In this document: piece by piece, positions 3,872 to 40,345 of the stretch
How the letters are laid out: every line of letters begins with the position of its first letter
Position numbering within the stretch: position 1 is the stretch's first letter
Assembly: GCA_035945995.1 (NCBI GenBank)
Contig: DASYZR010000049.1
Coordinates: 1 to 40,554 of the forward strand
DNA length: 40,554 nucleotides
Direction: 5' to 3'
From: a bacterium
GTDB lineage: Bacteria > Sysuimicrobiota > Sysuimicrobiia > Sysuimicrobiales > Segetimicrobiaceae
The notes under the pieces: model-generated
The model's input: only the letters and a program-made list of their open reading frames with translations
Databases searched by the model: none
What the model was told of the DNA's origin: nothing
Position numbers and translations under genes: made by a program

Positions 3872-4207
3872 TTAGCCGGACCCCCAACCGCTCAACGTCA
3901 AGAACATGTCAGCCGCCCGCGGATCGAATTGCCTGCCGGCCTGCTCCCGGATGTACGCTCGAGTCTGCGCCTCCCCCCACGCGGGACGATAGAGACGATC
4001 TGAGCGCTGGGCCTCCTCGCGACGCTGCTCCGCGACCTCGTAGAAACTAAGCCCAGAAGTCAGGAAAATAGCGGTGAGCACAAGGACGATGACACGGGCG
4101 GACAATCCAAACCGCCGCGGCCGCGGATGCGCTACGCCACGGAGTCCATGACCGACGGGACGGTCCGAGCTCAAAGTCAGGGCGGTGTTTCTCGTACGGA
4201 CCTCCAC
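3872..4207 (-). pseudogene. Collapsed membrane HD-GYP domain protein
   Basis: The 111-codon frame joins two pieces that normally lie far apart. Its first half is a sensor-like N-terminus with one membrane helix (SARVIVLVLTAIFLTSGLSF) and a short following helix (YEVAEQRREEAQ). It then continues in frame into SDRLYRPAWGEAQTRAYI and REQAGRQFDP, the extreme C-terminus of the HD-GYP cyclic-di-GMP phosphodiesterase domain. The HD and GYP active-site motifs, and whatever sensor domain preceded them, are gone, so the product cannot be a phosphodiesterase. The GTG at 4207 is a weak start choice, with an AGGAGG 15 bases upstream; the true N-terminus may differ. The reading as an in-frame internal deletion is my inference from the two recognisable ends. 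Confidence 0.55.
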
Positions 4208-4505
4208 TGGGCCGAGAGAGGTCCTCCTCGGGCGACAGTATTGCGCTGATAAACCGCATACCCTGACAGGCCCCGATTCAGACCAAAGGGCGGCGCGACG
4301 ATGTCCCGCCGCGCGTGGCGAGATCCTCAAACTGGACCTGTAACAGAACGTCACGCGCAGAGCTTTACTCCACAGACCCAAGACCAGGAACCCCGTCCAC
4401 GCACCCGGGGCGGAGGACCGGTGGCCCGCGCGGCGAAGGGCTTGACGCCTCGAGCGCTGATGGCGCGAGCGCGACGGTACCCATCCGTGGGCATGGGAGG
4501 AACCG
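4208..4505. other. Intergenic region before the sugar-acid operon
   Basis: I see no gene in this stretch. It holds the right copy of the 16-bp repeat (4395-4410) and the ribosome binding site GGGAGGAA at 4495-4502 of the next gene. No convincing promoter with both boxes is visible, although transcription of the seven-gene operon must start here or further upstream. Confidence 0.5.
4395..4410 (+). repeat. 16-bp direct repeat, right copy
   Basis: An exact copy of the 16 bases at 3771-3786, in the same orientation, on the other side of the HD-GYP relic. Confidence 0.5.
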
Positions 4506-5693
4506 GTGCGGATCACCACCTTGGAGGCCACGCCCGTCGCCGCGCCCGATCCGCCGCTGCGCAACTCCTGGGGCGTCCACGCGCCGTACTTTCTCCGGAC
4601 CATTCTCCGCCTGACGACGGACGACGGGTTCGTGGGCCTGAGCGAGACGTACGGTCCTGACAAAGTCGGTCCGCTCGCCGTCGAACGGGCCCGGCAGGTC
4701 GTGGTCGGGGAAAGCCCCTATAACGTGCAGCGGTTCATCTACCGTCTGCGCGACACCGTCCTCGCCGGCGCGATCGAAGTCGGCTGCCTCGATCTGATCG
4801 GCCGCGCCGCCGGCCGGCGCCTGTGCGATCTGCTCGGCGGACCGGTGCGCGAGCGCGTGCCGTTCAGCGCCTACCTCTTCTACAAATACGCCGACGACGA
4901 TGCCTGGGGAGAGGTCGGGTCCGCGGAACAGATGGTCGGCCTGGCCGAGGCCTTCGTCGAACGGTTCGGCTTCCGCACGCTCAAGGTCAAAGGGGGCGTC
5001 CTGCCGCCGCCGGAGGAGGTCGAGACGATGCGGCTCCTCCGCGAGCGCTTCGGCCCCGGGTACGCGTTGCGCCTCGATCCCAACGCGGTGTGGTCTGTGG
5101 AGACCAGCCTCCGCGTGGCGCACGACCTGGAACGCGCCGGTGTGTGGCTTGAGTACCTCGAAGATCCGACCGAGGGCATCGAGGGCATGGCCAGGGTGCG
5201 GGAGCGCATCGCCATGCCGCTGGCGACCAACATGTGCGTGACGTCGTGGGACGAGATCGCGCCGGCGGTGTCGCGCGGCGCGGTGGACGTCGTCCTCTCC
5301 GATCACCACGCCTGGGGCGGATTGCGGGCCTGCCAGGAACTCGGCCGCGTCTGCCGGGTGTTTCACCTCGGCATCGGCATGCATTCCAACAGCCACTTCG
5401 GGATCTCGATGGCGGCCATGACGCATCTGGCCGCCGTCGTGCCGGCCATGGTGGCGGCCGCCGACACCCATTACCCCTGGCTGACCGAGGACATCGTGGC
5501 CGGCCGGCCGTTCGCGTTCGAGGACGGCACGCTCGCCGTGCCGCCGGGGCCCGGGCTGGGCGTCGATCTCGACGAAGACCGGCTCGCGGCCTGCCATGAC
5601 GCGTTCCGGCGCGGTGTCGTGCGCCAGCGCGACGATACCGCCGAGCTCGTCAAGCGTGATCCGGGGTGGCTTCCGATCAAGCCGCGCTGGTAG
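4506..5693 (+). CDS. Glucarate dehydratase-like enolase-superfamily enzyme
   Basis: The 395-residue enzyme belongs to the mandelate racemase/glucarate dehydratase group, which abstracts the proton alpha to a carboxylate and eliminates water from aldaric acids. Visible motifs in order are the base pair KVK in TLKVKGG (about 160), metal ligands D in LRLDPNA (about 190) and E in LEDPT (about 219), the asparagine in ATNMC, and the acid/base histidine in GIGMHSNSHFG (about 293). The C-terminal run AAMTHLAAVVPAM with DTHYPW is characteristic of glucarate dehydratases (GudD). The GTG start follows GGGAGGA by about five bases. It heads an operon with a transporter and a second superfamily member, so the imported substrate is probably a sugar acid. 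Whether the substrate is glucarate itself cannot be told from sequence alone. Confidence 0.85.
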   Translation: MRITTLEATPVAAPDPPLRNSWGVHAPYFLRTILRLTTDDGFVGLSETYGPDKVGPLAVERARQVVVGESPYNVQRFIYRLRDTVLAGAIEVGCLDLIGRAAGRRLCDLLGGPVRERVPFSAYLFYKYADDDAWGEVGSAEQMVGLAEAFVERFGFRTLKVKGGVLPPPEEVETMRLLRERFGPGYALRLDPNAVWSVETSLRVAHDLERAGVWLEYLEDPTEGIEGMARVRERIAMPLATNMCVTSWDEIAPAVSRGAVDVVLSDHHAWGGLRACQELGRVCRVFHLGIGMHSNSHFGISMAAMTHLAAVVPAMVAAADTHYPWLTEDIVAGRPFAFEDGTLAVPPGPGLGVDLDEDRLAACHDAFRRGVVRQRDDTAELVKRDPGWLPIKPRW

Positions 5694-5763
5694 GGCGCGT
5701 ACCCGCTCCGGGGGGCCACGCCGGCCGGGGCCGGCGTGAGGGATCACAGGGGGAGGAACCGGC

Positions 5764-7704
5764 ATGACCAGGAAGATCCCGCGACGAAAGTTTCTTCAAC
5801 TCTCCGGCGTGGCCGCGGGGGCGCTCTCGGCCGCCTCCGCGTTCCGCGGACTTGCGCCGGGCGCACAGGCGAGTGCCGTGGCGGCGCCCGCAACGAAATT
5901 CCAGGAAGCCCCGATGCTCGCCACGCTGGTCCAGCAGGGCAAGCTGCCGGCGCTTGCCGAGCGCCTCCCGCATGCCGAGGACGTCCTCGTCGTCCGGCCG
6001 GTGAAGACGGCCGGCGAGTACGGCGGCACGTGGCATCGTGTCTGGAAGGGCCCTGCCGATTTTCACGCGTGGCAGCGACTAAACTACGAAGAGGTGCTGC
6101 GCTGGCCCCGGAATCCCAGGGACCCGATCCAGCAGGGGCTGGCCAAGCGCTGGACGTTCACCGACGGCGGAAAGACGCTGACCCTGTACTTCCGGCGAGG
6201 CCTCAAATGGTCCGACGGGCATCCGTGGACTGTTGATGACGTCCTGTTCTGGTGGCACGACATCGAGCTCAACAAGGAGCTGTCGGCGGCGCCGCACGCG
6301 GAGTGGGTGGTGGGCGAGAAGCTGATGGTGCCGGAGAAGGTCGACGATTATACGCTTCGGCTCTCGTTCGCCGCGGCGAACGGGATGGTCTTGCGGATGC
6401 TGGCGTTCCACGGCTGTCAGTGGCCGCTCAGCTTCGAGCGGTTCGGGTTCTACGCGCCCGCCCACTATCTCAAGCAGTTCCACCCCAAGTACAACTCCGC
6501 GGTCACGGACTACAAGCTCTTCAACCAGAAGGCGGACGACCTCAATCCGCAACGTCCGTCCATGACCCCCTGGCCGGTCTCGCAGTATACGCCCGGCAGC
6601 GCCACGCTCATCGCGGACCGCAACCCTTACTACTGGAAGGTGGACCCGGCCGGCCGGCAGCTGCCGTACATCGACCGCGTCGAGCACACCCTCGTCGAGA
6701 GCAACGAGGCCGCCGCGGGCCTCGCCCTCTCCTGCCGGATCGACATGCAGTACCGGAGCATGGACCTCAAGAAGTACCCGTTGTTTGTCGAGAAGTCCGC
6801 CGCGTGCCACTACCACGTCCTGCGGTGGGCGTCGGCGCAGGGCGGCCAGGTTGTGTTCTGGCCGAACCAGACCTATCCGCACGACCCGGTCCTGCGTAAG
6901 ATCTTCCAGGACCGCAACTTCCGCATCGCGCTCTCCTACGCGATCGACCGGCAGAAGATCAACGCCGTCTCGTATCTGAACCAGGGCGTCATCAACGGCC
7001 AGCTCGTTGTGCCCGATTCCCCCTACTTCGTGCCCGACGTGAACACGCTCTACCAGCAGCACGATCCGAAGCGGGCCGGCGAATACCTGGACAAAGCCGG
7101 CCTCAAGCTCGGCCCGGACGGGAAGACCCGCCTGCGCCCGGACGGGCGGCCGCTCGAAATCACGATCGAGACGCAAATGCAGGGCGCCGACCTGGACGCG
7201 GTCCAGCTCACAGCCTCCGACTGGAACGCGGTGGGCGTCAAGGCGGTCGTCAAGACGATGTCGCGCGATCTCTACTGGCCGCGCGCCACCGGCAACGAGG
7301 TGCAGATCGCCACCTGGGGGACCGACCGCGGGATCGAGCCGTTTGTGGACCCGATCTACGTGTTCCCGTTCGATGAGCGGTCGTGGATGGCGCCGGCATT
7401 CGGCGTGTACTACAAGACCGGCGGCGCGCGCGGCGAGCGGCCGACCGGGCCGCTGGCGCGCTCGCAGCAGCTGTACGACCTGTTCAAGGTCACGGTGGAT
7501 CAGGCGAAACAGGTCGACCTCGGCAAGAAACTCATCCGGATGGCCGCCGAAGAGGCGACGACCATCACCACGGTCGGCGTGGTGCCCGTGCCGGTCATCG
7601 TCAAGGACAACATGGAAAACGTCCCGGCGCACTACACGCAGGACTGGGTCATCATGTCGCCGGGGAATCTGGACCCCTGCCAGTTCTTCTTCAAGAAGGC
7701 GTAG
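5764..7704 (+). CDS. Tat-exported ABC solute-binding protein (family 5)
   Basis: This 646-residue extracytoplasmic binding protein of the peptide/nickel/oligosaccharide class (SBP_bac_5) delivers its ligand to the permeases encoded next. A twin-arginine signal, RRKFLQL at residues 7-13 followed by an alanine-rich hydrophobic stretch, means it is exported folded; no lipobox cysteine is seen. The body shows class landmarks such as LKWSDGHPWTVDDVLFWW and FRIALSYAIDRQKIN. The length is on the long side for dipeptide-binding proteins and resembles members that bind oligosaccharides. GGAGGAA precedes the ATG by five bases. Placement between two sugar-acid dehydratase-type genes argues for a sugar-acid or glycoside ligand rather than a peptide; this is inference. 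Confidence 0.88.
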   Translation: MTRKIPRRKFLQLSGVAAGALSAASAFRGLAPGAQASAVAAPATKFQEAPMLATLVQQGKLPALAERLPHAEDVLVVRPVKTAGEYGGTWHRVWKGPADFHAWQRLNYEEVLRWPRNPRDPIQQGLAKRWTFTDGGKTLTLYFRRGLKWSDGHPWTVDDVLFWWHDIELNKELSAAPHAEWVVGEKLMVPEKVDDYTLRLSFAAANGMVLRMLAFHGCQWPLSFERFGFYAPAHYLKQFHPKYNSAVTDYKLFNQKADDLNPQRPSMTPWPVSQYTPGSATLIADRNPYYWKVDPAGRQLPYIDRVEHTLVESNEAAAGLALSCRIDMQYRSMDLKKYPLFVEKSAACHYHVLRWASAQGGQVVFWPNQTYPHDPVLRKIFQDRNFRIALSYAIDRQKINAVSYLNQGVINGQLVVPDSPYFVPDVNTLYQQHDPKRAGEYLDKAGLKLGPDGKTRLRPDGRPLEITIETQMQGADLDAVQLTASDWNAVGVKAVVKTMSRDLYWPRATGNEVQIATWGTDRGIEPFVDPIYVFPFDERSWMAPAFGVYYKTGGARGERPTGPLARSQQLYDLFKVTVDQAKQVDLGKKLIRMAAEEATTITTVGVVPVPVIVKDNMENVPAHYTQDWVIMSPGNLDPCQFFFKKA

Positions 7705-7731
7705 CCGGCCGGGTTCTCGGGGACGCGGGGC

Positions 7732-8715
7732 ATGCTCGCCTACATCGCGAGGCGGCTCGGGGCGATGATCCCGACGCTGTTCTTCGTCTCGATCGTCTGC
7801 TTCATCATCATCCAGCTGCCCCCGGGCGACTTCCTCACGTCGCTCGCGGCCAACGCCGCGAGCTCCGGGTCGGGCGCAGACGCGGCGGCGATGGCGAACC
7901 TCCGCCACCAGTACGGGCTCGACCAGCCGAAGTACGTGCGCTATGTCAAGTGGATCGCCGGCTTTCCGCGCGGCGACTTCGGCTATTCGTTCGAGTGGAA
8001 GCGGCCGGTGGCCGAGTTGATCGCGGGCCGGCTCGGGCTAACCATGGCCCTCTCGCTGCTCTCGCTGGCGCTCATGTGGGTCATCGCCGTCCCGGTCGGC
8101 ATCTACTCGGCCACGCACAAGTACTCGGGCCTGGATCACCTGCTGACCTTCGTCACGTTCGGCGGCCTGTCGATTCCCGATTTCCTGCTCGGACTGGTGT
8201 ATCTCTTTGTCGGCATCTTCGTCTTCGGCGCCTCGCTGAGCGGGCTCTCGGCCCCGGAGCTGGCGGAGGCGCCGTGGTCGGCCGCCAAGGTGCTCGACCT
8301 CGCGAACCGCCTGTTCTGGCCGGCCCTCATCCTCGGCGCGGGCGGCACGGCGCAACTGGTCCGGATCCTGCGCGGGAGCATGCTCGAGGTCACGGGCCAG
8401 CAGTTCGTCCGCACGGCCCGCGCGAAGGGGCTTCCGGAGCGGGTCGTGATCAACCGGCACGCCGTCCGGGTGGCAATCAACCCGCTCATCAGCGTCATGG
8501 GGATGCAGCTGCCCCAGCTGATCTCCGGCGCGACGATCCTCGGCATCGTGCTCTCCATCCCGACCACGGGCCCGATGCTCATCCGCGCGCTCACGAGCCA
8601 GGACATGTACCTTGCCGGGACGTTCCTGTTGTTCCTAAGCCTGATGCTGATGCTGGGGAACCTCCTGGCGGACGTGGCGCTGGCGTTCATGGATCCGCGC
8701 ATCCGGTACCAATGA
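7732..8715 (+). CDS. ABC importer permease, DppB type
   Basis: The 327-residue membrane protein has the DppB layout: a first helix after MLAYIARRLGAMIPTL, a periplasmic loop containing the LRHQYGLDQP signature, and five further helices. The cytoplasmic coupling (EAA) loop is visible around GQQFVRTARAKGLPERVV at about residues 222-240. It forms the translocation pore with the DppC-type protein encoded next. The start is 27 bases after the binding-protein stop and the last base of its stop overlaps the next start (ATGA), so the genes are translationally coupled. No ATPase subunit follows in the operon. Confidence 0.92.
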   Translation: MLAYIARRLGAMIPTLFFVSIVCFIIIQLPPGDFLTSLAANAASSGSGADAAAMANLRHQYGLDQPKYVRYVKWIAGFPRGDFGYSFEWKRPVAELIAGRLGLTMALSLLSLALMWVIAVPVGIYSATHKYSGLDHLLTFVTFGGLSIPDFLLGLVYLFVGIFVFGASLSGLSAPELAEAPWSAAKVLDLANRLFWPALILGAGGTAQLVRILRGSMLEVTGQQFVRTARAKGLPERVVINRHAVRVAINPLISVMGMQLPQLISGATILGIVLSIPTTGPMLIRALTSQDMYLAGTFLLFLSLMLMLGNLLADVALAFMDPRIRYQ

Positions 8716-9860
8716 GCGCGCTCGAGGGGATGGAGGTGGAGGCCGCGCTCCCCGGCACACCGGCCGCGGTTGCCGCCGCGACGCCCGCCGCACGGTCGGG
8801 CGTGTCCCGGCGGCAGCTGGTGTGGCGGCGGTTCCTCCGCAGCCGCGCCGCGCTCGCCGGGGGGGCCGTCGTGGCGCTGTTCTACGTCATGGCCCTGTGC
8901 GCGGACTTCCTGGCGCCCTACACGGTGGATCAGCGGTTCATTCAGTATCTCTATCTCCCGCCGCAGGCCCCGCACTTCAGCCCGCGGCTCGGCTTCTACG
9001 TCGACGGCATCACGTCGAAGGTCGATCAGAACACCCTGCTCACCACGTTTGCCCCGGACGGCCGCCGCCGGATCCCGGTCCGCTTCTTCGTCCACGGCGA
9101 ACCGTACCGGATGGCCGGCCTGATCGCGTCGGACGTGCACCTCTTCGGCGTCGCGGATCCGGACATGGGGGTCTTTCTCGCGGGCACGGACCGGCAGGGG
9201 CGCGACATGCTGTCGCGGCTCCTGATCGGCAGCCAGATGTCGCTCACGATCGGCCTCGTGGGCGTGGCGCTCAGCCTCGTCATCGGCTCGGTCCTGGGCG
9301 TCGTGTCCGGCTACTACGGGGGCCCGATCGACGAGCTCGTCCAACGCGGAATCGAGGTCATCCGCTCGTTTCCGGCGATCCCGCTGTGGATGGCGCTGAC
9401 CGCGGCGCTCCCCCAGCACTGGCCGCCGGAGCGCGTGTACTTCGCGATCACGGTGATCCTGTCGGTGATCGGCTGGACGTGGCTGGCGCGCCAGCTCCGC
9501 GGCCGGGTGCTCGCGCTGCGGGACGAGGAGTTCGTCACGGCGGCCCGGGTGATGGGCGCGAGCGATGCGCGGATCATCTTCCGGCACCTGCTGCCCCAGG
9601 TGTTCGGGCTCATCGTGGTCATCGCCACACTTGCGATGCCCGGCATGATCCTGGCGGAGACGGCGCTGTCGTTCCTGAACCTCGGACTGCGGCCGCCGCT
9701 CACGAGCTGGGGGGTGCTGCTGCAGGAAGCGCAGAATTTGGAATCCCTGCGGCACTACCCGTGGCTGCTGAGCCCGGCCGTGTTCATCTCGATCACGGTC
9801 TTGGCGTTCAACTTCTTCGGCGACGGCCTCCGCGACGCGGCGGACCCGTACTCCGCGTAG
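8712..9860 (+). CDS. ABC importer permease, DppC type
   Basis: The 382-residue partner permease overlaps the upstream stop by four bases. The N-terminal cytoplasmic tail precedes a first helix near residue 55. A long insertion of about 80 residues (around PPQAPHFSPRLGF to DVHLFGVADPD) separates helix 1 from the conserved GTDRQGRDMLSRLLIGSQ segment; this large extracellular insert is seen in DppC relatives of oligosaccharide-type importers. The coupling loop is visible at DEEFVTAARVMGASDARIIF. It pairs with the DppB-type protein and needs an ATPase encoded elsewhere. Confidence 0.92.
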   Translation: MSALEGMEVEAALPGTPAAVAAATPAARSGVSRRQLVWRRFLRSRAALAGGAVVALFYVMALCADFLAPYTVDQRFIQYLYLPPQAPHFSPRLGFYVDGITSKVDQNTLLTTFAPDGRRRIPVRFFVHGEPYRMAGLIASDVHLFGVADPDMGVFLAGTDRQGRDMLSRLLIGSQMSLTIGLVGVALSLVIGSVLGVVSGYYGGPIDELVQRGIEVIRSFPAIPLWMALTAALPQHWPPERVYFAITVILSVIGWTWLARQLRGRVLALRDEEFVTAARVMGASDARIIFRHLLPQVFGLIVVIATLAMPGMILAETALSFLNLGLRPPLTSWGVLLQEAQNLESLRHYPWLLSPAVFISITVLAFNFFGDGLRDAADPYSA

Positions 9861-9869
9861 GAGGTCGCA

Positions 9870-11000
9870 ATGCGGATCGAAGACGTCCGGGTGATCCGGT
9901 TCCGCTACACGTCGCGCGTGGTGCGCGATGCGGAGGGCCACGGCCACCCTGGGCCCGCCCACGAGGCGGTCCAGACCCTGACCGTCGTCCAGGCCGAGAG
10001 CGGGATCGACGGCTACTGCTTTGGTGGCAGCGAGGCGCTCGCCGCCGCGGCCCGGCCGATCCTGGTGGGGCAGCATCCCCTCGACCGCGAGCGCATCTGG
10101 CAGACCCTGCGCCGCCACCAGCGTCTCGCCGGCGACGTGCTGACCGACCGCGGGATCGCCGTGCTCGACGTCGCGCTGTGGGACCTCGCCGGCCGGCTCG
10201 CGCACGTGCCGATCTCGCGGCTGCTCGGCGGCTTCCGCACCCGGGTGCCCGCGTACGCCAGCACCATGTGCGGGGATGATCTCCCCGGCGGGTTGAATTC
10301 GCCGGAGGCGTACGCGGAGTTCGCCGTGGGACTCGTCGAGCGGGGCTACCCCGCGATCAAGCTGCACACCTGGATGCCCCCGCTCGGCCCCGACCCCAAA
10401 CGAGACGTCGCCGCCTGCCGGGCGGTGCGGGACCGGGTGGGCCCCGGCGTGCGTCTCATGCTCGACTGCTTCCACGACTACAGCCGGACAGAGGCGCTGT
10501 ACATCGGGCGCGCGCTCGAGGAGCTCGACTTCTACTGGTTCGAGGAGCCGATGGACGAGCACAACGTCAGCTCGTACGTGTGGCTCGCGGACCAGCTCCG
10601 CATCCCGCTTGTGGGCCCGGAGACCGCCGAGGGGAAGATGTTTACCCGGGCGGAGTGGATCCTGCGCGGCGCTTCCGACATCAGCCGCTACTCCGCGAAC
10701 CTCGGCGGGATTACGCCCATGCTCAAGGCGATCCACCTCTGCGAGTCGCTCGGCGTGCCGCTCGAAGTGCACGGCGGCGGCGCCGCGAATCTGCAGGTGC
10801 TCGGAGCCATGGGCTTTCCCGGCGAGTACTATGAACGGGGATTGCTGCACCCGTTTCTCGACTACGAAACCGCCACCCCGTGGCTCACCGAGGTGATCGA
10901 CCCACTCGACCACGACGGCTCCGTCCGGATCTCCGAGAAACCCGGGCTCGGCCAGGACATCGACTGGGAGTACATCGAGCAACACCGCCTCGACGCGTGA
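9870..11000 (+). CDS. Mandelate racemase/muconate lactonizing enzyme family protein
   Basis: This second enolase-superfamily enzyme (376 residues) has the N-terminal capping domain and the barrel metal ligands D in LMLDCF (about 198), E in WFEEPMDE (about 225) and E in GPETAEG (about 251), with a late histidine in EVHGGGAANLQ (about 300). The first catalytic lysine motif reads IKLHTW, that is K-x-H instead of the usual K-x-K, so the chemistry may differ from the first enzyme of the operon. AGGAGG overlaps the stop of the permease gene and gives a well-spaced ATG. Co-transcription with a glucarate-dehydratase-like gene suggests it handles a related sugar acid or a diastereomer; the substrate is unknown. 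Confidence 0.87.
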   Translation: MRIEDVRVIRFRYTSRVVRDAEGHGHPGPAHEAVQTLTVVQAESGIDGYCFGGSEALAAAARPILVGQHPLDRERIWQTLRRHQRLAGDVLTDRGIAVLDVALWDLAGRLAHVPISRLLGGFRTRVPAYASTMCGDDLPGGLNSPEAYAEFAVGLVERGYPAIKLHTWMPPLGPDPKRDVAACRAVRDRVGPGVRLMLDCFHDYSRTEALYIGRALEELDFYWFEEPMDEHNVSSYVWLADQLRIPLVGPETAEGKMFTRAEWILRGASDISRYSANLGGITPMLKAIHLCESLGVPLEVHGGGAANLQVLGAMGFPGEYYERGLLHPFLDYETATPWLTEVIDPLDHDGSVRISEKPGLGQDIDWEYIEQHRLDA

Positions 11001-11002
11001 GC

Positions 11003-11614
11003 ATGCACGCCTCGCTGGCCGCCACGGACGTCGCCCGGGCGTTCGGCCGTCACCGCGTGCTGCGGGGGGTCACCTTCCGCGCGCACCCCGGCGAGATGAT
11101 CGGCATCGTCGGCGAAAACGGCGCTGGCAAGACGACGCTGCTGCGCATCCTCGCCGGCCTGCTGCCGGCCTCGCACGGGCACGTGGAGGTCCACGGCCGC
11201 CTGGGGTACTGCCCCCAGGAGCCGCAGGTGCACGCCGCGCTGACGGTGGCCCAAAACCTCGAGTGGTTCGCCGCCGCGTACCGGCTCGACCGCACGGCGC
11301 CGGCCGACGCGCTTCTCGAGCGCCTGGCGTTGCAGCAATTCCGGCACGCGCTGGTGCGGGACCTGAGCGGCGGGACCCGCCAGAAGCTGAACCTCGTGCT
11401 CGCGCTGATGCACACGCCGACCGTCCTGCTGCTCGACGAGCCGTACCAAGGATTCGATTGGGAGACGTACCAGCGGTTTTGGGCGCTGGCCGAAGAATAC
11501 CGCGGCGCCGGCCAGACGGTGGTGATCATCTCGCACCTCTTCTACGAGCTGGCGCGCTTCGACCGCGTGCTGCGGCTCCAGGACGGCGTGCTGACGGCGG
11601 AACGCGGCGCGTGA
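11003..11614 (+). CDS. ABC exporter ATP-binding protein
   Basis: A short (203-residue) ATPase with Walker A GENGAGKTT (about 37-45), the Q-loop in YCPQEPQ, signature LSGGTRQ (about 121), Walker B VLLLDEP (about 141) and the switch histidine in IISHLFYE. It works with the membrane protein encoded directly downstream as a two-gene ABC-2 type system, not with the Dpp-type importer, whose ATPases are of a different class. The ATG at 11003 is used; an in-frame GTG at 10997 would overlap the previous stop as GTGA and is equally possible. The exported substrate is not indicated by sequence. Confidence 0.88.
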   Translation: MHASLAATDVARAFGRHRVLRGVTFRAHPGEMIGIVGENGAGKTTLLRILAGLLPASHGHVEVHGRLGYCPQEPQVHAALTVAQNLEWFAAAYRLDRTAPADALLERLALQQFRHALVRDLSGGTRQKLNLVLALMHTPTVLLLDEPYQGFDWETYQRFWALAEEYRGAGQTVVIISHLFYELARFDRVLRLQDGVLTAERGA

Positions 11615-16612: not shown

Positions 16613-16627
16613 CGGATCGCCCGGCGG

Positions 16628-17566: not shown

Positions 17567-17607
17567 CGGACCGGAATCCTCAGCAGGCCTTCCGGCGTGT
17601 CAGATAC

Positions 17608-17748
17608 TTACGCCGCCGGGGAAAAGTCGGTCGCCTCGAGCAGTGCGGACGCCCTCCACGATCACGCCGCGCTCGTGGCTCTTCGCGCGCCCGGCCTGTC
17701 CGGCTTGCGCCCGGGCATGCAGCGATACACGCGAAGCTCGTACACCAT
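17608..17748 (-). pseudogene. Collapsed NIPSNAP-family gene
   Basis: The minus strand starts with a perfect ribosome binding site GGAGG (17761 to 17757), eight bases, then ATG at 17748 and MVYELRVYRCMPGRKPD, a textbook NIPSNAP start. After about 17 codons the frame turns into unrelated sequence and stops at 17662. Further on, another frame contains LLEATDFSPAA and a stop at 17608, resembling the usual NIPSNAP tail (PT-D/E-FSP). A normal member has about 105-110 residues; only 47 codons of length remain, so the middle has been removed and the frame broken. Recognition of the start is strong, of the tail moderate. It lies between the exchanger and hydrolase genes on the same strand. Confidence 0.55.
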
Positions 17749-29857: not shown

Positions 29858-29879
29858 GTCCTCCAACCCCCTTCGTGTC

Positions 29880-31064: not shown

Positions 31065-31966
31065 TCGCGGCTCTCCTCGTACACGGCCGCCCGGCAGCTG
31101 CCGGGAAGGAACACGTAGAGCCGCTGCCGCGTGCGGTCGAAGGCGGTCGTATGCGCGCCCGCCTCCGTGGCGATTTCTTGGCCGATCGCCATCGCTCGGG
31201 TGTCGATGACGGCGAGGATGCCCGGTTGGCCGATCGCGACATACACGCAAGACCGGTCGGCGTTGTACCAAATCGCGTCCGGTTGCCCCGGGATCACGAC
31301 GCCGGCAAGTTCCCGGCCGGTCTTGAGGTCGAGCGCCAGGACGTTGCCGCCGTCGCAGGCGACGAGCGCCCGGCCGTGTTCCACGTCGAGGTCGAGACCG
31401 TGAGGACCGGGCGAGGACACCGGCCACCGCTCCCGCGTTGCCGCCGTGTCCGCATCCAGGACGGCGATGCAGGCGGGTTCCCGGATGTTGACCAGGAATC
31501 GGTCCCCGTCCGAATCGTAGACGCACCAGCGGGGTCTGCCCGGTAATTCCCCGCCGGCGACGATCGACCCCGCGCCGGGATCGACGAGCCGGGCGCGAAA
31601 GTCCTGAACGTCGGCGACCAAGAGCCGGTGGCGGCGTGGGTCCCATGCCAGGCCGTTCGGGTTCGGTCCCACGACGATTTCAGCGGTCACGGCCCCCGAA
31701 GCCGCCATCACGACGAGCACCTTCCCCGCTCCTCGGGCCGCCGCGAAGACGAGCCGCTCCGTCTGCGCGCACAGCACGCCGCTCGCCGCCGGGCAGCCCG
31801 GAATCGTGCCACGATGGATCCCGCGCTCTCCGTCGATGATTTCGACGGTTCCCGTCGCCGTATGCGCGAGGAACACCAGCCCCGTCTCGAGATGCACGTC
31901 GCCGTGATCGAAGCCCCCCGACGGATGGGACGGCAGGGGGATCGCTCCGGCCGGGGTCAGCGCCAC
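31061..31966 (-). CDS. Cytoplasmic YVTN-type beta-propeller in the chromate operon
   Basis: A 301-residue protein made of about six repeats of the kind GLAWDPRRHRLLVADVQD and LDLDVEHGRALVACDGG, the WD40-like YVTN propeller pattern. No signal peptide or membrane helix is present at its N-terminus (MALTPAGAIPLPSHPSGGFD), so unlike the YncE-type protein at 23369 it should be cytoplasmic. It lies between the stand-alone ChrB domain and chrA, six bases after the former and overlapping the latter, so it belongs to the operon. The role is unknown; scaffold or sensor are only guesses. The GTG at 31966 lacks a clear ribosome binding site. Confidence 0.7.
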   Translation of the reverse strand: MALTPAGAIPLPSHPSGGFDHGDVHLETGLVFLAHTATGTVEIIDGERGIHRGTIPGCPAASGVLCAQTERLVFAAARGAGKVLVVMAASGAVTAEIVVGPNPNGLAWDPRRHRLLVADVQDFRARLVDPGAGSIVAGGELPGRPRWCVYDSDGDRFLVNIREPACIAVLDADTAATRERWPVSSPGPHGLDLDVEHGRALVACDGGNVLALDLKTGRELAGVVIPGQPDAIWYNADRSCVYVAIGQPGILAVIDTRAMAIGQEIATEAGAHTTAFDRTRQRLYVFLPGSCRAAVYEESRE

Positions 31967-31972
31967 CGCGGG

Positions 31973-32413
31973 CTACCGTTCCTCCGCGACTTCCCGCCGG
32001 CACCACGCGTACAAGGCGTCGTACAGCGGCGTCTCGAGGCGGATCTTCTCGTGGTCGTCATCGCCGTGAATCAGCGCAAAGCCGTGCGCGATCGCCTTGA
32101 GGCCCGCCGCCTCGGGGACGATGGCGATGTCCGCGGCGACGTCCGCCCCATGGACGATCGTGGCCAGTTTGCGCAGGGCCGGATCGTCGAGATGGTACTT
32201 GACCATGATGGATTCGAAGCTGCACCGGCCGTCGACATGGCCGAGTTCGACGCCTTTGACGTCGTAGGGAATGGCCTTCTCCCGCTCGGCCGCGGCCAGC
32301 ACCTCGTCCGCGGGCGCGTAGATGAAGACGGGATCCTTGTCGACGAATTTGCGAATGAGCCACGGACAGGCGACCCGGTCGACGTTCGCGTTCTTGCGCG
32401 TGATCCACTTCAC
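31973..32413 (-). CDS. Stand-alone ChrB C-terminal domain protein
   Basis: The 146-residue protein corresponds to the C-terminal half of ChrB: KWITRKNANVDRVACPWLIRKF at its start, then YDVKGVELGHVDGRCSFESIMVKY and a helical tail. It aligns by motif with residues about 185-300 of the full-length ChrB encoded downstream. The GTG at 32413 is chosen because GGAGGTG lies six bases before it; the upstream GTG at 32422 would include that site. It is the first gene of the six-gene chromate operon, transcribed from the AT-rich region at 32430-32500. A chromate-response role is likely, the mechanism open. Confidence 0.85.
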   Translation of the reverse strand: MKWITRKNANVDRVACPWLIRKFVDKDPVFIYAPADEVLAAAEREKAIPYDVKGVELGHVDGRCSFESIMVKYHLDDPALRKLATIVHGADVAADIAIVPEAAGLKAIAHGFALIHGDDDHEKIRLETPLYDALYAWCRREVAEER

Positions 32414-32429
32414 GTCCGGCACCTCCGAC

Positions 32430-32500: not shown

Positions 32501-32550
32501 AAGCCCCGGGCGTGTGTTCGACGGCCGGAACCGCGCGCGGGGGCCGATGC

Positions 32551-32556: not shown

Positions 32557-32563
32557 GTGCGGT

Positions 32564-33493: not shown

Positions 33494-33498
33494 GCGCG

Positions 33499-33780
33499 AT
33501 GGGATACTACGTGCTGCTCTACTATGTAATCGACAACTTCGTGACGCGCCGGGCTCCATACCGCGAAGAGCACCTCGGCCTCGTCCGCGCGGCGCGCGAG
33601 CGCGGCGAGTTGGTCCTGGCCGGGGCCCTCGGGGATCCGCCCGATCGGGCGCTGCTCGTCTTTCGCGCCTCGGATCCGGCGCCGGTCGAGGCCTTCGCCC
33701 GGAGCGATCCCTACGTCCGGGAGGGGTTGGTGCGGCGGTGGGAAGTCCAACCGTGGGCCGTCGTGGTGGGCGCCCCGTGA
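33499..33780 (+). CDS. YciI-family protein
   Basis: The 93-residue protein has the YciI ferredoxin-like fold pattern: a first strand YYVLLYYVIDN, the conserved histidine in YREEHLGLVRAARERGELVLAGALGD, an LLVFRASDPAPVEAFARSDPYV segment with the conserved acidic D-P, and a final WEVQPWAVVVG strand. Some YciI proteins have hydrolase or dehydrochlorinase-like activity, but the role of most is unknown. The ATG at 33499 is five bases after the AlaX stop; an in-frame GTG at 33490 overlapping that stop is an alternative. The downstream gene overlaps its stop by four bases. Confidence 0.85.
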   Translation: MGYYVLLYYVIDNFVTRRAPYREEHLGLVRAARERGELVLAGALGDPPDRALLVFRASDPAPVEAFARSDPYVREGLVRRWEVQPWAVVVGAP

Positions 33781-34085
33781 TCGCGCGGGTGTGGACGGCG
33801 CGCACCACGCCGGCGCAGGCGCCGGCCTACGCCGATCACCTGCGGGCCCGCGTGCTGCCCCAGCTGCGCGCGCTCGACGGCTACGCCGGCGCGTGGCTGC
33901 TGCGCCGGGATGCCGGCGGCGGGAGCGAGCTCATCGTGGTGACGAGATGGCGGTCGACGCAGGCGGTGCACGCGTTTGCCGGCGCCGACGTCGACGCCGC
34001 GGTCGTCGAGCCCGAGGCCGCGGCGCTCTTGAGCCGGTACGACACCCGCGTCAGACACTACGAGATCGTCGTCGACGATGGGTGA
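33777..34085 (+). CDS. Antibiotic biosynthesis monooxygenase-like (ABM fold) protein
   Basis: A 102-residue protein with the dimeric ferredoxin-like ABM fold: VIARVWTARTTPAQAPAYADHL at the start, then LRALDGYAGAWLLRRD, SELIVVTRWRSTQAVHAFAG, and a final YEIV strand. Family members include cofactor-free oxygenases and haem-degrading proteins; the conserved tryptophan in TRWRS is typical but no catalytic site is certain. The GTG overlaps the YciI stop (GTGA) and the MarR gene overlaps its end by eight bases. It is probably co-regulated with that repressor. Confidence 0.78.
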   Translation: MIARVWTARTTPAQAPAYADHLRARVLPQLRALDGYAGAWLLRRDAGGGSELIVVTRWRSTQAVHAFAGADVDAAVVEPEAAALLSRYDTRVRHYEIVVDDG

Positions 34086-34566: not shown

Positions 34567-35722
34567 ACAGCGCCGCCGCGCCGAGTGGGGCACACAGCAG
34601 AAACGGCGCGGCGATGCCGAGGAGGGCCGCGGCGCCGCCGACGAGCGGTCCGACGAAGAAGCCGAGATCGCCGGAGCTGTTGTACACGCCCATCGCCGTG
34701 GTATACCGGTCGCGCGCGGTGATGCGCGCGATCAGCGTCGTGAAGCTGACCGGCACGATGCCGCCGACGAAGCCGTACACGGCGCCGACGGCGAAGAACG
34801 CGGCCGGCGCGTGCAGCGCCGGTACCAGCAGGGTGCTCGCGGCGCGGCCGACGACCGCGGGCGCGATCAGCCGCTCGGGGCCGATCCGGTCGGCGAGCCG
34901 GCCGGTCGGGATCTGACAGAGCGCGTACGTGAGACCCTGCACGGCGAACACCTCGCCGATCACCAGCACGGACAGGCCCTGTTTCGCGGCGTACAGCGGT
35001 AGAAACGTCAGCCAGATCGCGGTGATCGCATAGTGCAGATGGTTCGCCAGGCACAGGCGAAAGAAGGCCGTATCCCGCAGCACTTCCCAGGCGCGCAGGC
35101 CCGCGGCCGCGGCGGCGGGGCGCCCGCGGTCGGTGATCGAAAACACCACCGGCAGGGCGGCCAGGCTTAGAACCGTTCCCAGGTAGAACGCGGCCCGGCC
35201 GCCGTACCGCGACGCGACAAGGCCCCCGAGCGCCGGTCCGACGAGAAATCCAACGGACGTCACAAGCCAGAACGTGGCGAACGTCCGTCCCCGCGTCTGC
35301 GCCGCGGCGTCTTCCGCAACGCCGGCCATGAGCGGCGTCCACATCGTCGCGCGCGCCGTGCCGATCGCCGCGAGCGCGAGAGCGATCGCCGCGGCCGCGC
35401 GCGCTTCGGCGGCCCACACCAGAGCGGCCGCGTGCAACAGAAGCCCGCCGATCAGCGTCTGCCGCCGTCCCAGGGCGGCGGCGATCCGGCCGACCTCGAG
35501 TTCGACGGCGCCCATCGCGAGGCTGAGCACGCTGACCAGCAGGCCGATCTCCGCCGCGGTGTAGCCGATGCGGGCGAGATGCAGCGGGAGGACCGGAATG
35601 ACCACCTGCCACGAAATCCCGGTGAGAAATCCGGCCGCGCCGAAGAACGCGAGCCGGGTGGGGGCCGGCATGGCGCCGGAGGCGGCCGAAACGGCCGCGT
35701 CGGTATCTGGGGATGATCGCAC
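34520..35722 (-). CDS. MFS multidrug-type exporter
   Basis: A 400-residue (or 383 from the ATG at 35671) transporter with twelve hydrophobic segments, the first after RLAFFGAAGFLTGISWQVV, the loop signature VGRIAAALGRRQTL between helices 2 and 3, and TGRLADRIGPERL at the matching site of the second half. DHA1-type drug exporters look like this. The start is uncertain: GTG at 35722 has no ribosome binding site. It is divergent from the ArsR-type regulator, with about 135 bases between, and overlaps the MarR gene at its end, so either regulator might control it. Confidence 0.85.
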   Translation of the reverse strand: MRSSPDTDAAVSAASGAMPAPTRLAFFGAAGFLTGISWQVVIPVLPLHLARIGYTAAEIGLLVSVLSLAMGAVELEVGRIAAALGRRQTLIGGLLLHAAALVWAAEARAAAAIALALAAIGTARATMWTPLMAGVAEDAAAQTRGRTFATFWLVTSVGFLVGPALGGLVASRYGGRAAFYLGTVLSLAALPVVFSITDRGRPAAAAAGLRAWEVLRDTAFFRLCLANHLHYAITAIWLTFLPLYAAKQGLSVLVIGEVFAVQGLTYALCQIPTGRLADRIGPERLIAPAVVGRAASTLLVPALHAPAAFFAVGAVYGFVGGIVPVSFTTLIARITARDRYTTAMGVYNSSGDLGFFVGPLVGGAAALLGIAAPFLLCAPLGAAALFSAQSAVTALSRRAD

Positions 35723-35795
35723 TTCACACTGGTTGGACGCGGGACGGCCGACTCCTGGACCGGCGGAGGAGCGCCGCGGCGGCCGACCCAGGGCC

Positions 35796-35824
35796 TGGAC
35801 GTTGACATATCAGTTATGTATGAT
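35796..35824 (+). promoter_or_regulatory. ArsR-type promoter with inverted-repeat operator
   Basis: A -10 box TATGAT lies at 35819-35824 with TGGACG as weak -35 17 bases upstream. The perfect inverted repeat ACATA-TCAGT-TATGT (35805-35819) fills the spacer and touches the -10 box, so a bound regulator would block RNA polymerase. AT-rich 5-bp arms of this sort fit ArsR/SmtB operators in general shape. Autoregulation by the adjacent gene is inferred. Confidence 0.5.
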
Positions 35825-35858
35825 GTGTGGGATGACTATTCCCGACGGGAAGGGGCCT

Positions 35859-36611
35859 ATGCGCGGCCAAACGGTAGCGACGATCGCGCGGGCGCTCGCC
35901 GATCCGATCCGGTTCAAGATTCTGGAGCGCCTCTCCGACGGACCGGCGGCCGTCTCCGAGCTCGTGCTTCTGACGGGTGAGTCGCAGTCCAACGTGTCCA
36001 ATCATCTGTCGGTGCTCCGCGCGCGCGGACTCGTCGGCGCGACACGACTGGGGCGCCAGCGCGTTTACGAGGCGTCCGATTCCTCCGTGGGGCAGTTGAT
36101 CGAATCGCTGGTCGTCGTCGCCGGCCGCAGGTCCGCCGGGGTGGAGATCACGCCGTCGCTGGCAAGGGCGCGTACCTGCTACGATCACCTCGCCGGGCGT
36201 CTCGGCGTTGCCATTTTCGACGCCCTCGTCGCGCGCCGCGCGCTCGATCGGCCCGCCGTGCGTTATCGCGGTCCGATCGGACTGGGTCCGGCCGGCCCCG
36301 CGGTGCTCGGACGCCTCGGGATCGACTTGGACGAGGTGCGGCGCGAGCGCCGTCAGTTCGCGACCGCGTGCGGCGACTGGACCGAGCGAAGGCCGCACCT
36401 GGGCGGCGCGCTCGGGGCGGCTCTGTGGGCGAACGCGTTGGAGCGGGGGTGGGTTGTGCGAAGACCCGGCGGCCGGGTCGTCGTACTGACGGAACGTGGC
36501 CGTCGAGGCTTCGGCCGGCACCTCGGTATCCGTCTCGATCGAGACGCCCGGCGCCCAGGGTCCCCGCACACCGCGGATCGCCGCCAGCCACCGGACCGGC
36601 GGCGGTTTTGA
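35859..36611 (+). CDS. ArsR-family regulator with extra C-terminal domain
   Basis: The first 90 residues are an ArsR winged helix: IARALADPIRFKILERLSDGPAAVSELV, then TGESQSNVSNHLSVLRARGLV and the wing TRLGRQRVYEAS. About 150 residues follow, starting with the phrase RARTCYDHLAGRLGVAIFDALV and ending in a helical part with WVVRRPGGRVVVLTERGRRGF. This longer form is a known ArsR subgroup in which the CYDHLAG cysteine and histidine may contact the ligand. The ATG at 35859 has GGAAGGGG just upstream; the ATG at 35832 would be leaderless from the promoter at 35796. It overlaps nothing but is closely followed by an exporter gene. Confidence 0.85.
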   Translation: MRGQTVATIARALADPIRFKILERLSDGPAAVSELVLLTGESQSNVSNHLSVLRARGLVGATRLGRQRVYEASDSSVGQLIESLVVVAGRRSAGVEITPSLARARTCYDHLAGRLGVAIFDALVARRALDRPAVRYRGPIGLGPAGPAVLGRLGIDLDEVRRERRQFATACGDWTERRPHLGGALGAALWANALERGWVVRRPGGRVVVLTERGRRGFGRHLGIRLDRDARRPGSPHTADRRQPPDRRRF

Positions 36612-36619
36612 ACCACACC

Positions 36620-37525
36620 GTGTCCGCCCGGCTGTCCCCTCCGTCGGCGGCCCCCGCGGAGGCGCGACGCCACGGGACGGGGATCGTCCTCGTCACCGCG
36701 TCCGCGGTCGCCTACAGCACCGCCGGGTATTTCACCCGGCTCATTCACCTGGACCCGTGGACCATTCTGTTCTGGCGGGGCGTCTTTGCGGGCGTGTTTA
36801 TCGGGGCCGTGATCGTTGCGCACCACCGCCGCGGTACGCCGGCGGCCGTGCGGGCGATCGGTGTCCCCGGGCTCATCGCCGCGTCGATGTCGACCATCGC
36901 GACGATTATGTTCATCAACGCCTTTCGCCGGACATCGGTCGCGGACGTGACGATCATCTTCGCGACGGCGCCGTTCATGACCGCGGCGCTCGGATGGTGC
37001 TGGATCCGGGAACGGGAATCGTGGCCCACGCTGCTGGCCAGCGCCGTCGCGTTTGCCGGCGCCGTGGTCATGGTGGGCGGGGCGGCCACCGCGGGCCGCC
37101 TGGCCGGGGATGTGCTTGCCATCGGGATGACATTCTGCATGTCAATCATGATGCTGATCATCCGGCGGTACCGGAAGACGCCGATGCTGCCCGCCGCGTG
37201 CCTCTCGGCGTTCTTGTGCTCGCTCGCGGTGCTGCCTTTCGCCCGGCCGGCAAGCCCCGGGGTCGTGGACATGGTGTTTCTCGTGCTGTTCGGGACCACG
37301 CAGTTTGGGCTCGGTCTGTTGCTCCTCACGCTCGGGGCGCGCCTGGTGTCGGCGACCGAGTCGGCGCTGATGAACGCCCTTGAAGGGCCGCTGGCGCCGT
37401 TGTGGGTGTGGCTCGCGTTCGCGGAAGTGCCTCCGCGGACGACCCTGATCGGCGGGTCGATCGTTCTGGCCGCGGTCTTCGGCCACATCGCCGCGAGTGC
37501 GCGATCCCGGCGCGTGCTAGAATAG
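36620..37525 (+). CDS. EamA/DMT-family exporter
   Basis: The 301-residue membrane protein has ten helices in two EamA repeats, the first beginning GIVLVTASAVAYSTAGYFTRL and with FWRGVFAG, and the second beginning LAGDVLAIGMTFCMSIMMLIIRRYR with SALMNALEGPLAPLWVWLAF near its end. EamA proteins export metabolites such as amino acids or their analogues. The GTG at 36620 is eight bases after the regulator stop; a TTG at 36608 overlapping it is possible. It is presumably regulated with the ArsR-type gene. Its last codons (R-V-L-E-stop) contain the -10 box of the following tRNA-Ala. Confidence 0.85.
   Translation: MSARLSPPSAAPAEARRHGTGIVLVTASAVAYSTAGYFTRLIHLDPWTILFWRGVFAGVFIGAVIVAHHRRGTPAAVRAIGVPGLIAASMSTIATIMFINAFRRTSVADVTIIFATAPFMTAALGWCWIRERESWPTLLASAVAFAGAVVMVGGAATAGRLAGDVLAIGMTFCMSIMMLIIRRYRKTPMLPAACLSAFLCSLAVLPFARPASPGVVDMVFLVLFGTTQFGLGLLLLTLGARLVSATESALMNALEGPLAPLWVWLAFAEVPPRTTLIGGSIVLAAVFGHIAASARSRRVLE
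37518..37523 (+). promoter_or_regulatory. Extended -10 box of tRNA-Ala copy 1, inside the exporter stop
   Basis: TGC followed by TAGAAT precedes the tRNA by 11 bases. The box spans the last Leu and Glu codons and enters the TAG stop of the EamA gene, so coding end and promoter share bases. No -35 box of note is seen. Confidence 0.55.
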
Positions 37526-37534
37526 AGGACGCGT

Positions 37535-37609
37535 GGGGACGTAGCTCAGTGGGAGAGCACCTGCTTTGCAAGCAGGGGGTCGCCGGTTCGAATCCGGTCG
37601 TCTCCACCA
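37535..37609 (+). tRNA. tRNA-Ala (anticodon TGC), copy 1
   Basis: A 75-base cloverleaf with encoded CCA. The acceptor GGGGACG/CGTCTCC contains the G3:U70 pair that defines alanine identity. The anticodon stem CCTGC/GCAGG closes the loop TTTGCAA, anticodon TGC. It is identical, base for base, to the copy at 40358-40432. Confidence 0.98.
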
Positions 37610-37743
37610 GCTGACGCGCGAAAATCGCTAGAACCCTTGCTATTTAAGGAGGAAGGACTCGAGAAAGCAGAGGGTTACCCCGCTAACGGCTTCGAAACCG
37701 CGTGTTGTTCGTTGATCGCACTGGGGCGGGGCCGCGCAGGTCG
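37610..37743. other. Junction region after tRNA-Ala copy 1
   Basis: No gene is convincing here. Present are an interrupted CCTT-AAGG repeat starting about 25 bases after the tRNA, a strong Shine-Dalgarno-like AAGGAGGAAGGA at 37647-37658 with no coding start at the right distance, and a GGGTTACCC palindrome. Composition shifts here from the high-GC chromosome to the lower-GC block that follows. Confidence 0.35.
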
Positions 37744-38697
37744 TCAATCCGTCACTTCGACTTCGACCGCCTGCAGCGTAAGGGGCTGCACTCTCACGAT
37801 GACCGATTTCTCCACGAGGTCCGGCGGCCGAGCGACGATGCTCCCGCCGACAATGAATCGTGGGTTCTCGGATAAGGTGAACGACCGGCCGTCGCCGAGC
37901 ATCAAAGTTCGGTCGGTCGCCGACTCGACGCGTCCCCTCTCTTCGCGTACCAACACCTCTCCTTGCCGGATCGTCCCCCGAGGGCGCGGTCCCCCGCCAA
38001 TTTCGACAACGAGTCTCACCGCGTCGCCGGAGAAGATCTGCCGGAGCTGGATCGGCTCGACGCGACTTGTGTTGAGATCGCGACGAAAGAACGCGGTGTC
38101 GGGAGCGACGGTGAACGTGCGGGTTTGGTTCCCATACCATGTGATGACGATGTCCGGCAAGCGGGCGGCGAGGTCCACGCGCAGTACGGTTCCCTCCGCG
38201 GGCCCTTGCTTGGGCGGCACCGGCTCCGCGGCCGGCGGCGAGGACGGCGGGGCCGGTCCGGGCGTGATCGACACGATGTGGAGCCCGGGATCCCACGTGA
38301 CCGCCGCCCCTAACGCCTCGCCGACGAACCGCAAAGGCACGTATACCCGCCCTGCGACGATGATTGGTGCCGCGTCCAAGGTGACGGGCGAATCATTGAT
38401 GAACGCCTGGCGGCTGCCGGCCATGAGCCTGACCTGCGTGCTCCGGCCTGCCGCTACATTGCGAGAGACGATGACGGCATGTGTCGCCGGGTTTTCCCAA
38501 GCAAGCGTAGCGCCCAGTTGTTCAAATAGTCCTCGCACGGGCACAAACACGCGGCCGTCAATGATCAGAGGGGGACGCTCGAGTGTTATCTCGTGTCCGG
38601 TAATCACCACACGAAGCGCCGAATCCGCCGGAGCCGGGAGCGCCGCGCTCAAGACAATCGCAAGCGCGGGGAGCGAAGCCAAAAGGCTTCCTCTCAC
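37744..38697 (-). CDS. Exported protein with copper amine oxidase N-terminal-like repeats
   Basis: The 317-residue product starts with a signal peptide (GSLLASLPALAIVLSAALPAPADSA) followed by two stalk-type repeats: PPLIIDGRVFVPVRGLFEQLGATLAW and APIIVAGRVYVPLRFVGEALGAAVTW. These are the hallmark of the Cu_amine_oxidN1 domain, a common cell-surface module that needs no copper. A proline-rich linker (PAPPSSPPAAEPVPPK) leads to an unrecognised beta-rich domain of about 150 residues. The GTG at 38697 has AGGTG eight bases upstream. It follows the gene at 39693 on the same strand with a gap of 51 bases, probably one operon. GC content is lower than in the rest of the window. Confidence 0.8.
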   Translation of the reverse strand: MRGSLLASLPALAIVLSAALPAPADSALRVVITGHEITLERPPLIIDGRVFVPVRGLFEQLGATLAWENPATHAVIVSRNVAAGRSTQVRLMAGSRQAFINDSPVTLDAAPIIVAGRVYVPLRFVGEALGAAVTWDPGLHIVSITPGPAPPSSPPAAEPVPPKQGPAEGTVLRVDLAARLPDIVITWYGNQTRTFTVAPDTAFFRRDLNTSRVEPIQLRQIFSGDAVRLVVEIGGGPRPRGTIRQGEVLVREERGRVESATDRTLMLGDGRSFTLSENPRFIVGGSIVARPPDLVEKSVIVRVQPLTLQAVEVEVTD

Positions 38698-38748
38698 GTG
38701 TTTCGCACCTACGCCTCCCGGCCCCACACGTTTGCCCAAGCCGTCAGC

Positions 38749-39693
38749 CTATGGCGACGTCACCTGCCATTTATAGTTCGGCGCCAGCACCTGAAGGCTG
38801 TACTTGGGGGCGTTCGTAAAGCACCACCCGATCGCCCACGCATACGAGTTCGACGAGTTCGCGTACGTCCAGGCTCCTCCCATAAGTACCTGAATTTGAT
38901 CCGCGGTTATCGGTGGGAGGGACGGACAAACATTCGCCTGCTGCATATCGTTTTCGTGGACCGACCAGCCGCCGGAGGTGTCCGGCAGTTGAGGTGTGCT
39001 GACCTCATACGCGAGATCCCACGCGTTGGTGTTGAAATTGTAGATCATCGCATCGTATGTGACGGACGTCGAGCCGTCTGGGATGGCGCTCTGGACGAGC
39101 TCCACCCAAAAGACATTGGCGCCGTTATAGTACGTCAGATAATTGCTGATGAATGTCGAATCCATCGGAATAGAAGTGCCTATACCCTGGGCGACGCAAT
39201 GGTCCCATACCCAGACCGCCCGCAAGGTTTGGGTGTCGCCGGGATACCGTGTGTACGCCGTCGTCCATTCCAGGCACGAGTTGGCGTTCATGCCTGTCGG
39301 CGCGTAAAGAAAGGCCGGCGCTTGCACCGGACCGAGTTCAAGGTCCGGAGAGGCAGCGTGCGCCGCGTAATATCCTAGTGCTGTGCCCACCGTCGTATCG
39401 ATACCGATATCGGTGCCCGCATTGCCGTCCCCCAGCGCCGGCCTAGGTGGTGTGCCGCGCTTGGGAAACCGGCGTTTCGGTCGACTTGCAAAATGCGGCC
39501 GCTTCACCGTCAGCCGGTGCGCGGTCTTTCGATATTGTGCCTGGTTCGTGACCGGCCGGGGTGGACTGGTAATGGCTCGCGCCGCGCGAGGCGCCCCCGC
39601 CACTTCGGAAACCGGGCTTACCGCTCCAAGCATTGTCAGACTCAGGGTGAGACTCAGGAGAGCCCTAATCGGCCATCTCGTCAACGCAATCAC
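38749..39693 (-). CDS. Exported protein of unknown family with four cysteines
   Basis: The 314-residue product has a signal peptide (WPIRALLSLTLSLTMLGAVS, then SEVAGAPRAARA), a basic proline-rich linker to about residue 80, and a compact domain rich in Asn, Tyr, Trp and Ser. Four cysteines (in NSCLEW, DHCVAQG, NVCPSLP, GWCFTN) could form two disulphides. The domain has the look of a beta-sandwich surface or carbohydrate-binding protein, but I recognise no family. The GTG at 39693 is preceded by AAAGGGG, and a TACAAT -10 box lies at 39719 to 39714. Codon use is less GC-rich than chromosomal neighbours, and it sits between the two tRNA-Ala copies. Confidence 0.7.
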   Translation of the reverse strand: MIALTRWPIRALLSLTLSLTMLGAVSPVSEVAGAPRAARAITSPPRPVTNQAQYRKTAHRLTVKRPHFASRPKRRFPKRGTPPRPALGDGNAGTDIGIDTTVGTALGYYAAHAASPDLELGPVQAPAFLYAPTGMNANSCLEWTTAYTRYPGDTQTLRAVWVWDHCVAQGIGTSIPMDSTFISNYLTYYNGANVFWVELVQSAIPDGSTSVTYDAMIYNFNTNAWDLAYEVSTPQLPDTSGGWSVHENDMQQANVCPSLPPITADQIQVLMGGAWTYANSSNSYAWAIGWCFTNAPKYSLQVLAPNYKWQVTSP

Positions 39694-39965
39694 CGTCCCC
39701 TTTTGCCCCCTAAATTGTATTTTGCCCAGCGTGCACGGGCCGGCAAAACTCAACGGGGGTAGTGACCCGGCGCGGGGCCCACAAGTCTTCGTCCAGGGGG
39801 CAAGCCCACACGCCTTTGAGCACCACTGGTAACTTGGGTACGCAGCTCATGATAAGCTGGTTGGACGCCGGGCTGTTGACTCCTCGATGGTACGGGGGAG
39901 CGGACATCCACAACGCGAAGATCGGCAGACGTTAGCGAGCGGTCTGTTGCGGCGGAGGGCGACAC

Positions 39966-40345
39966 ATGCGGTTTGCGATCTCGATTTCCCAGCACGCTGC
40001 CGACGGCACGTTTCACCCAGCCGCTTTCCGCGCCTACCTGGCCGTGCCGAGGCGCTCGGGTTCGAGAGCATCTGGACGCTGGAGCAGGTGTTGGGCTCGG
40101 TACCCCACATGGGACCGATCGAGACGATGACCTACGCGGCGGCGTGCAACGAACGTCTGCGCCTGGGCTGCGCCGTGCGGGATCTCGAGTCCGTTCCCGT
40201 CTTCGGCCCGCCGCGGGCGTGCGTGGACGGGCTCCACGAGATGATCGAGGCGGGCGCGGAGATGATTCTGCTCAATCCGCTCTTCGACGAGGCGGAGCAG
40301 ATGGAGCGCCTCGCCGCCGACGTGATGCCGCGCATGCTAGAATAA
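39966..40345 (+). pseudogene. Collapsed luciferase-like (F420-type) monooxygenase gene
   Basis: A good ribosome binding site GGAGGG lies seven bases before the ATG at 39966. The frame opens MRFAISISQHAADGTFHPAAFRAYL, as in LLM-class oxidoreductases. Near 40042 one base is missing; restoring it continues RAEALGFESIWTLEQ and TMTYAAACNERLRLGCAV, the normal first 60-70 residues. Directly after this the sequence jumps to the family C-terminus (VFGPPRACVDGLHEM, LLNPLFDEAEQMERLAADVMPRMLE, stop 40345). About 200 residues of the barrel, including most cofactor contacts, are absent. So the gene carries both a frameshift and a large internal deletion and cannot be active. Its last codons carry the -10 box of tRNA-Ala copy 2. 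Confidence 0.75.
40338..40343 (+). promoter_or_regulatory. Extended -10 box of tRNA-Ala copy 2, inside the relic's end
   Basis: TGC-TAGAAT, the same element as before copy 1, lies 14 bases before the tRNA and overlaps the last Leu-Glu codons and the TAA stop of the luciferase-like relic. Confidence 0.55.

Follow-up and report, generated by a model that had tools for sequence, protein, structure and literature searches.

The window studied here, a stretch of 40,554 nucleotides that is the entire contig DASYZR010000049.1 (C49) of assembly GCA_035945995.1 (G000), carries a luciferase-like and a NIPSNAP gene that have lost their middles and kept both ends, and a third gene, of the HD-GYP family, in which the same has probably happened. 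The three-fold pattern described previously is thereby confirmed, against syntenic intact orthologs for the first two genes and as probable for the third. The three remnants are separate, independent pseudogenes, and we consider it very probable that they arose in a region of fast gene turnover where deletions confined to one gene survive as the neighbours are spared. This is a known process of ordinary gene decay, and no special or new system is required. G000 is a metagenome-assembled genome of 4.15 Mb in 181 contigs with ~70% GC; G001 is a relative from the same genus and G014 belongs to another family. The remnants are:

39966-40345, plus strand: luciferase-like (LLM-class monooxygenase) remnant, retaining codons 1-71 and ~251-306
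17614-17748, minus strand: NIPSNAP remnant, retaining ~17 codons at the start (MVYELRVYRCMPGRK..) and ~40 at the end
3872-4120, minus strand: probable HD-GYP remnant, with an N-terminal membrane segment (..SARVIVLVLTAIFLTSGLSFYEVAEQRREEAQ) that runs in frame into the ~42 C-terminal residues of the HD-GYP domain

In G001 the luciferase-like gene is intact (306 aa) and lies between counterparts of the window's MFS gene and tRNA-Ala, the MFS gene being its divergent left neighbour with a start ~124 bp away. Alignment with this ortholog indicates that 540 bp (180 codons, an exact multiple of three; range 538-540) are gone at 40177/40178, as the start of the G001 gene aligns to window positions 39861-40176 and its end to 40174-40438. 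One base has been lost near 40031, which puts the start and the remainder of the remnant in different frames, and the Pfam Bac_luciferase match spans only profile positions 23-76 of 314. With 68% identity to the G001 ortholog and a syntenic position, the remnant is more than a chance resemblance.

The last codons of this remnant are shared with a neighbour, as follows from the position of three features:

40335-40343, plus strand: extended -10 element TGCTAGAAT of tRNA-Ala, sharing bases with the final codons and the stop codon of the luciferase remnant
40358-40432, plus strand: tRNA-Ala (TGC) copy 2, syntenic with G001 and G002
37531-37611, plus strand: tRNA-Ala (TGC) copy 1, an 81-bp exact repeat of 40354-40434

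The two identical tRNA-Ala genes sit 2.8 kb apart, and at each of them the element overlaps the stop codon of the upstream gene, which for copy 1 (element at 37515-37523) is an EamA gene. The element is found upstream of tRNA-Ala in G000 (both copies), G001, G002 and also G014, which has no luciferase there, and luciferase paralogs away from the tRNA end differently. G002 has lost the luciferase separately (L029, 351-1882): an S41-type peptidase gene (named by reading the translation, not by family search) occupies its place, and only the last 21 luciferase codons persist beside tRNA-Ala. It appears that these codons persist since they hold the tRNA promoter, as seen twice in the genus, and with the promoter inside them that end of the gene could not be lost. 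Selection keeping promoters or terminators at gene edges had been proposed as one shared cause of the pattern; the -10 overlap and the retention in G002 uphold it for the luciferase 3' end only, and for the edges of NIPSNAP and HD-GYP we infer a constraint. A literature search for pseudogenes retaining a neighbour's promoter found nothing.

Intact, syntenic orthologs of the NIPSNAP gene (~107 aa) are present in both G001 and G002. Aligned to them, the remnant lacks a middle of ~180 bp, followed by a 5-bp gap and other small indels, and the frame is lost. Its identity to the orthologs is 81% and its position syntenic, which is again more than expected by chance. A search of the genome for the Pfam NIPSNAP family missed the remnant, and it was detected by comparison with relatives together with a motif search. 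The ABM gene at 33777-34085 was considered as the NIPSNAP gene of the preliminary description and rejected, being a different and seemingly complete gene.

The HD-GYP remnant remains an open frame, while full-length HD-GYP proteins measure 850-1330 aa, and ~2.3-3.7 kb are absent from its middle. Neither the HD nor the HHExWDGxGYP (HHExxDGxGYP) motif was found across 3872-4663, and there was no Pfam match there. Over its final 41-45 aa the remnant is 51-61% identical to HD-GYP C-termini, and judged from this similarity the assignment of the tail is secure. The N-end is the weakest part of the case. When its 41 aa were compared with 45 relatives, the strongest foreign matches fell at the N-termini of HD-GYP proteins on G001:C15 (E 0.001) and G003:C183 (E 0.003), proteins that are also matched independently by the C-end of the remnant; a further match is to an HD-GYP in G017:C309 (E 0.2). 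In a proteome-wide BLAST the N-end scored no better than shuffled sequence. No intact HD-GYP ortholog was found at the same place in the relatives, which hold only family-level homologs. As the surrounding block is absent from the relatives, its classing as a pseudogene rests on the missing core rather than on synteny, and the collapse of an HD-GYP gene is probable.

The status of the three as pseudogenes is based on the loss of the conserved core in every one of them, on intact orthologs that close relatives carry in the corresponding position (G001 for luciferase, G001 and G002 for NIPSNAP), and on further disruption of the reading frame in these two, the HD-GYP frame being open. When the luciferase and NIPSNAP joints are aligned with the orthologs on both sides, at most 1 bp is shared, and an AGGCCG pair flanking the NIPSNAP gap is not the joint used. 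RecA-independent slippage between short direct repeats is a common route to internal deletions. However, the earlier proposal that deletion between short repeats inside the genes, with microhomology at the joints, produced the pattern is disfavoured at the two joints that could be aligned, and we regard it as very unlikely to explain these remnants. The Ku end-joining protein was found in 12 of the 13 genomes searched (G000 and 11 of 12 relatives), so repeat-free end joining is available, and it may have made these deletions.

In the decay that we favour, each gene would first have lost its function, illegitimate deletion would then have taken out its middle, and purifying selection on the neighbours would have acted as a filter, since a deletion reaching past either end would damage a neighbour. 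Gene-confined deletions would thus survive because the genome is tightly packed. The geometry of such deletions was computed for 1,471 genes. When 60% of the gene is removed, 25% of the free placements are internal, compared with 72-75% of those that leave the neighbours untouched. The assumption that random decay would more often remove one end therefore holds for free placement, but not when neighbours are spared.

How often genes collapse in this way was counted in a sample of 1.81 Mb (932 kb of G000 and 880 kb of G001 and G002, not the whole genome), in which genes were called and all predicted proteins searched against the sample DNA. The luciferase and NIPSNAP genes of the window were the well-supported collapsed remnants, making a total of three with HD-GYP, whose weak N-end led the scan to score it as C-only. 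Non-genic DNA and short frames held 7 N-only and 12 C-only remnants, or ~15 one-ended cases in total after by-eye removal of the window HD-GYP and likely architecture cases. Collapsed remnants are thus rarer than one-ended ones in the sample, an outcome that the preliminary description had itself named as refuting, and the genome-wide excess that had been suggested does not appear. The ratio does not contradict the geometry, because one-ended remnants also come from larger replacements, as in G002, and from multi-gene deletions, as in G001, where the loss of ~3.4 kb took a gene for a solute-binding protein together with the greater part of two permease genes and left the last 30 codons of the second permease at 97% identity (L066, 7139-7233). 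Three other collapsed calls (G002:C22, G000:C120 and G000:C8) were dropped as low-identity architecture variants in intact ORFs. When the missing ends of one-ended remnants were searched, a possible extra gapped pseudogene surfaced at G000:C13:17018-17441 (L165), with residues ~45-70 and 130-277 of a 280-aa protein left.

Gene turnover is fast in the region around the window, and three insertions lie beside the remnants:

3755-11011: 7.25-kb block, in G000 only, between queG and an ABC-transporter gene
16621-17608, minus strand: ~990-bp insertion holding a sodium/calcium exchanger gene (16628-17566), absent in G001 and G002
35680-39860: 4.1-kb block between the MFS gene and the luciferase remnant, inserted relative to G001

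The first block contains the HD-GYP remnant, two enolase-superfamily genes, SBP_bac_5 and two permeases; G001, G002, G003 and G006 run straight from queG to the ABC gene without it, and the enolase-transporter cluster is present elsewhere in G003 (L073). The second insertion immediately adjoins the NIPSNAP remnant on its 3' side. The third holds a helix-turn-helix regulator (family assigned from reading the translation only), an EamA transporter, tRNA-Ala copy 1, a Cu-amine-oxidase-N gene and a gene for a secreted protein of no assigned family. Nine gene-scale indels were found in 65 kb of pairwise synteny at the window region versus none in 28 kb elsewhere, in comparisons that overlap, so that some events are doubly counted, and with a small sample elsewhere. 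The window region is a gene-turnover hotspot, and the high turnover is enough to explain the cluster of collapsed genes. The pair of Cu-amine-oxidase-N and secreted-protein genes (37743-39732) has 90% DNA identity to G002:C4, compared with mostly 72-82% along the syntenic backbone, and may represent a recent transfer.

As every remnant abuts one of these G000-specific insertions, it could be suggested that incoming cassettes bring about, or go together with, an internal deletion in the gene that they border. However, no integrase or transposase was among the families found, the edge of the insert at NIPSNAP and luciferase falls at the gene border and not at the deletion joint, and indels are so many in all three genomes that the adjacency may well be chance, which makes this account of the remnants very unlikely. 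It is similarly improbable that the arrival of foreign cassettes is in general mechanically coupled to the collapse of bordering genes, giving clusters of middle-less genes at insertion borders; if true, such coupling would add a mechanism for how foreign genes settle. The tRNA-Ala side of the third block recalls tRNA-associated genomic islands in that extra DNA adjoins a duplicated tRNA gene. In contrast to such islands, both tRNA-Ala copies are complete and identical over 81 bp with no partial copy, the insert lies on the other side of the luciferase remnant, and no integrase or recombinase was found in 35680-39860.

A systematic assembly collapse had also been put forward, in which the full genes exist and the assembler passed over their central parts or made a false join at the 81-bp tRNA repeat. 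A metagenome-assembled genome in so many contigs, with two exact tRNA-Ala repeats flanking the luciferase side, leaves room for such an error. Nevertheless, the luciferase and NIPSNAP joints are without a repeat, and the remnants bear frameshifts in addition to the deletions. The detached luciferase middle was found nowhere else in the G000 assembly, where the sole close match is an intact, full-length paralog on C110 (78% to the G001 protein). In addition, the ends of C49 (window 40414-40554) and C111 (the L291 end) are identical over ~141 bp; the two contigs are thus probably neighbours in the assembly graph, and an overlap of this length suggests a final k-mer longer than the tRNA repeat. 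The idea of an assembly collapse is set aside on these grounds as highly improbable. The frame kept across the joint in HD-GYP and luciferase might point to functional miniproteins under selection, such as a membrane-anchored HD-GYP tail, but this is hardly credible: the luciferase start no longer shares a frame with what follows it, NIPSNAP has lost its frame, HD-GYP lacks its catalytic region, and no orthologous short form was found in relatives.

Several points weigh against our explanation by independent decay with spared neighbours. Direct support for the filter by selection on neighbours comes from a single edge. The N-end of HD-GYP rests on ~41 aa with E ~0.001 per genome, and the parent gene was not found. 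Moreover, all three collapsed genes lie in one 36-kb window and each borders an insertion specific to G000. The cluster carries little weight because the window was picked for the pattern and is better covered by the fetched orthologs; this post-hoc choice and reference coverage may explain the cluster, as a bias that was not removed.

Elsewhere in the window (28491-32422), two ChrB-domain genes (28491-29468 and 31973-32422), one of which carries the C-terminal domain only, stand on either side of an apparent chromate-type transporter gene and a beta-propeller-like gene.

The three remnants fit the picture of gene decay drawn from Salmonella and Buchnera. Pseudogenes in Salmonella are eroded chiefly by deletion, and where a deletion takes out a neighbour as well it goes unseen by methods that rely on synteny (Kuo and Ochman 2010, PMC2916853). 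The remnants resemble these pseudogenes as non-functional genes between conserved neighbours, worn mainly by deletion, but differ in that each has lost ~55% or more. In Buchnera, spacers built partly of decaying genes retain functional signals (PMC3164680). The DNA of a decaying gene likewise retains a functional signal here; in contrast to Buchnera, this signal is a tRNA promoter element within the last codons of the dead gene. The luciferase-tRNA pair offers a clean natural case of a dead gene that has retained its final codons. It seems that the packing of the genome yields the striking pattern as such: with neighbours spared, most of the surviving deletions within genes would be internal.
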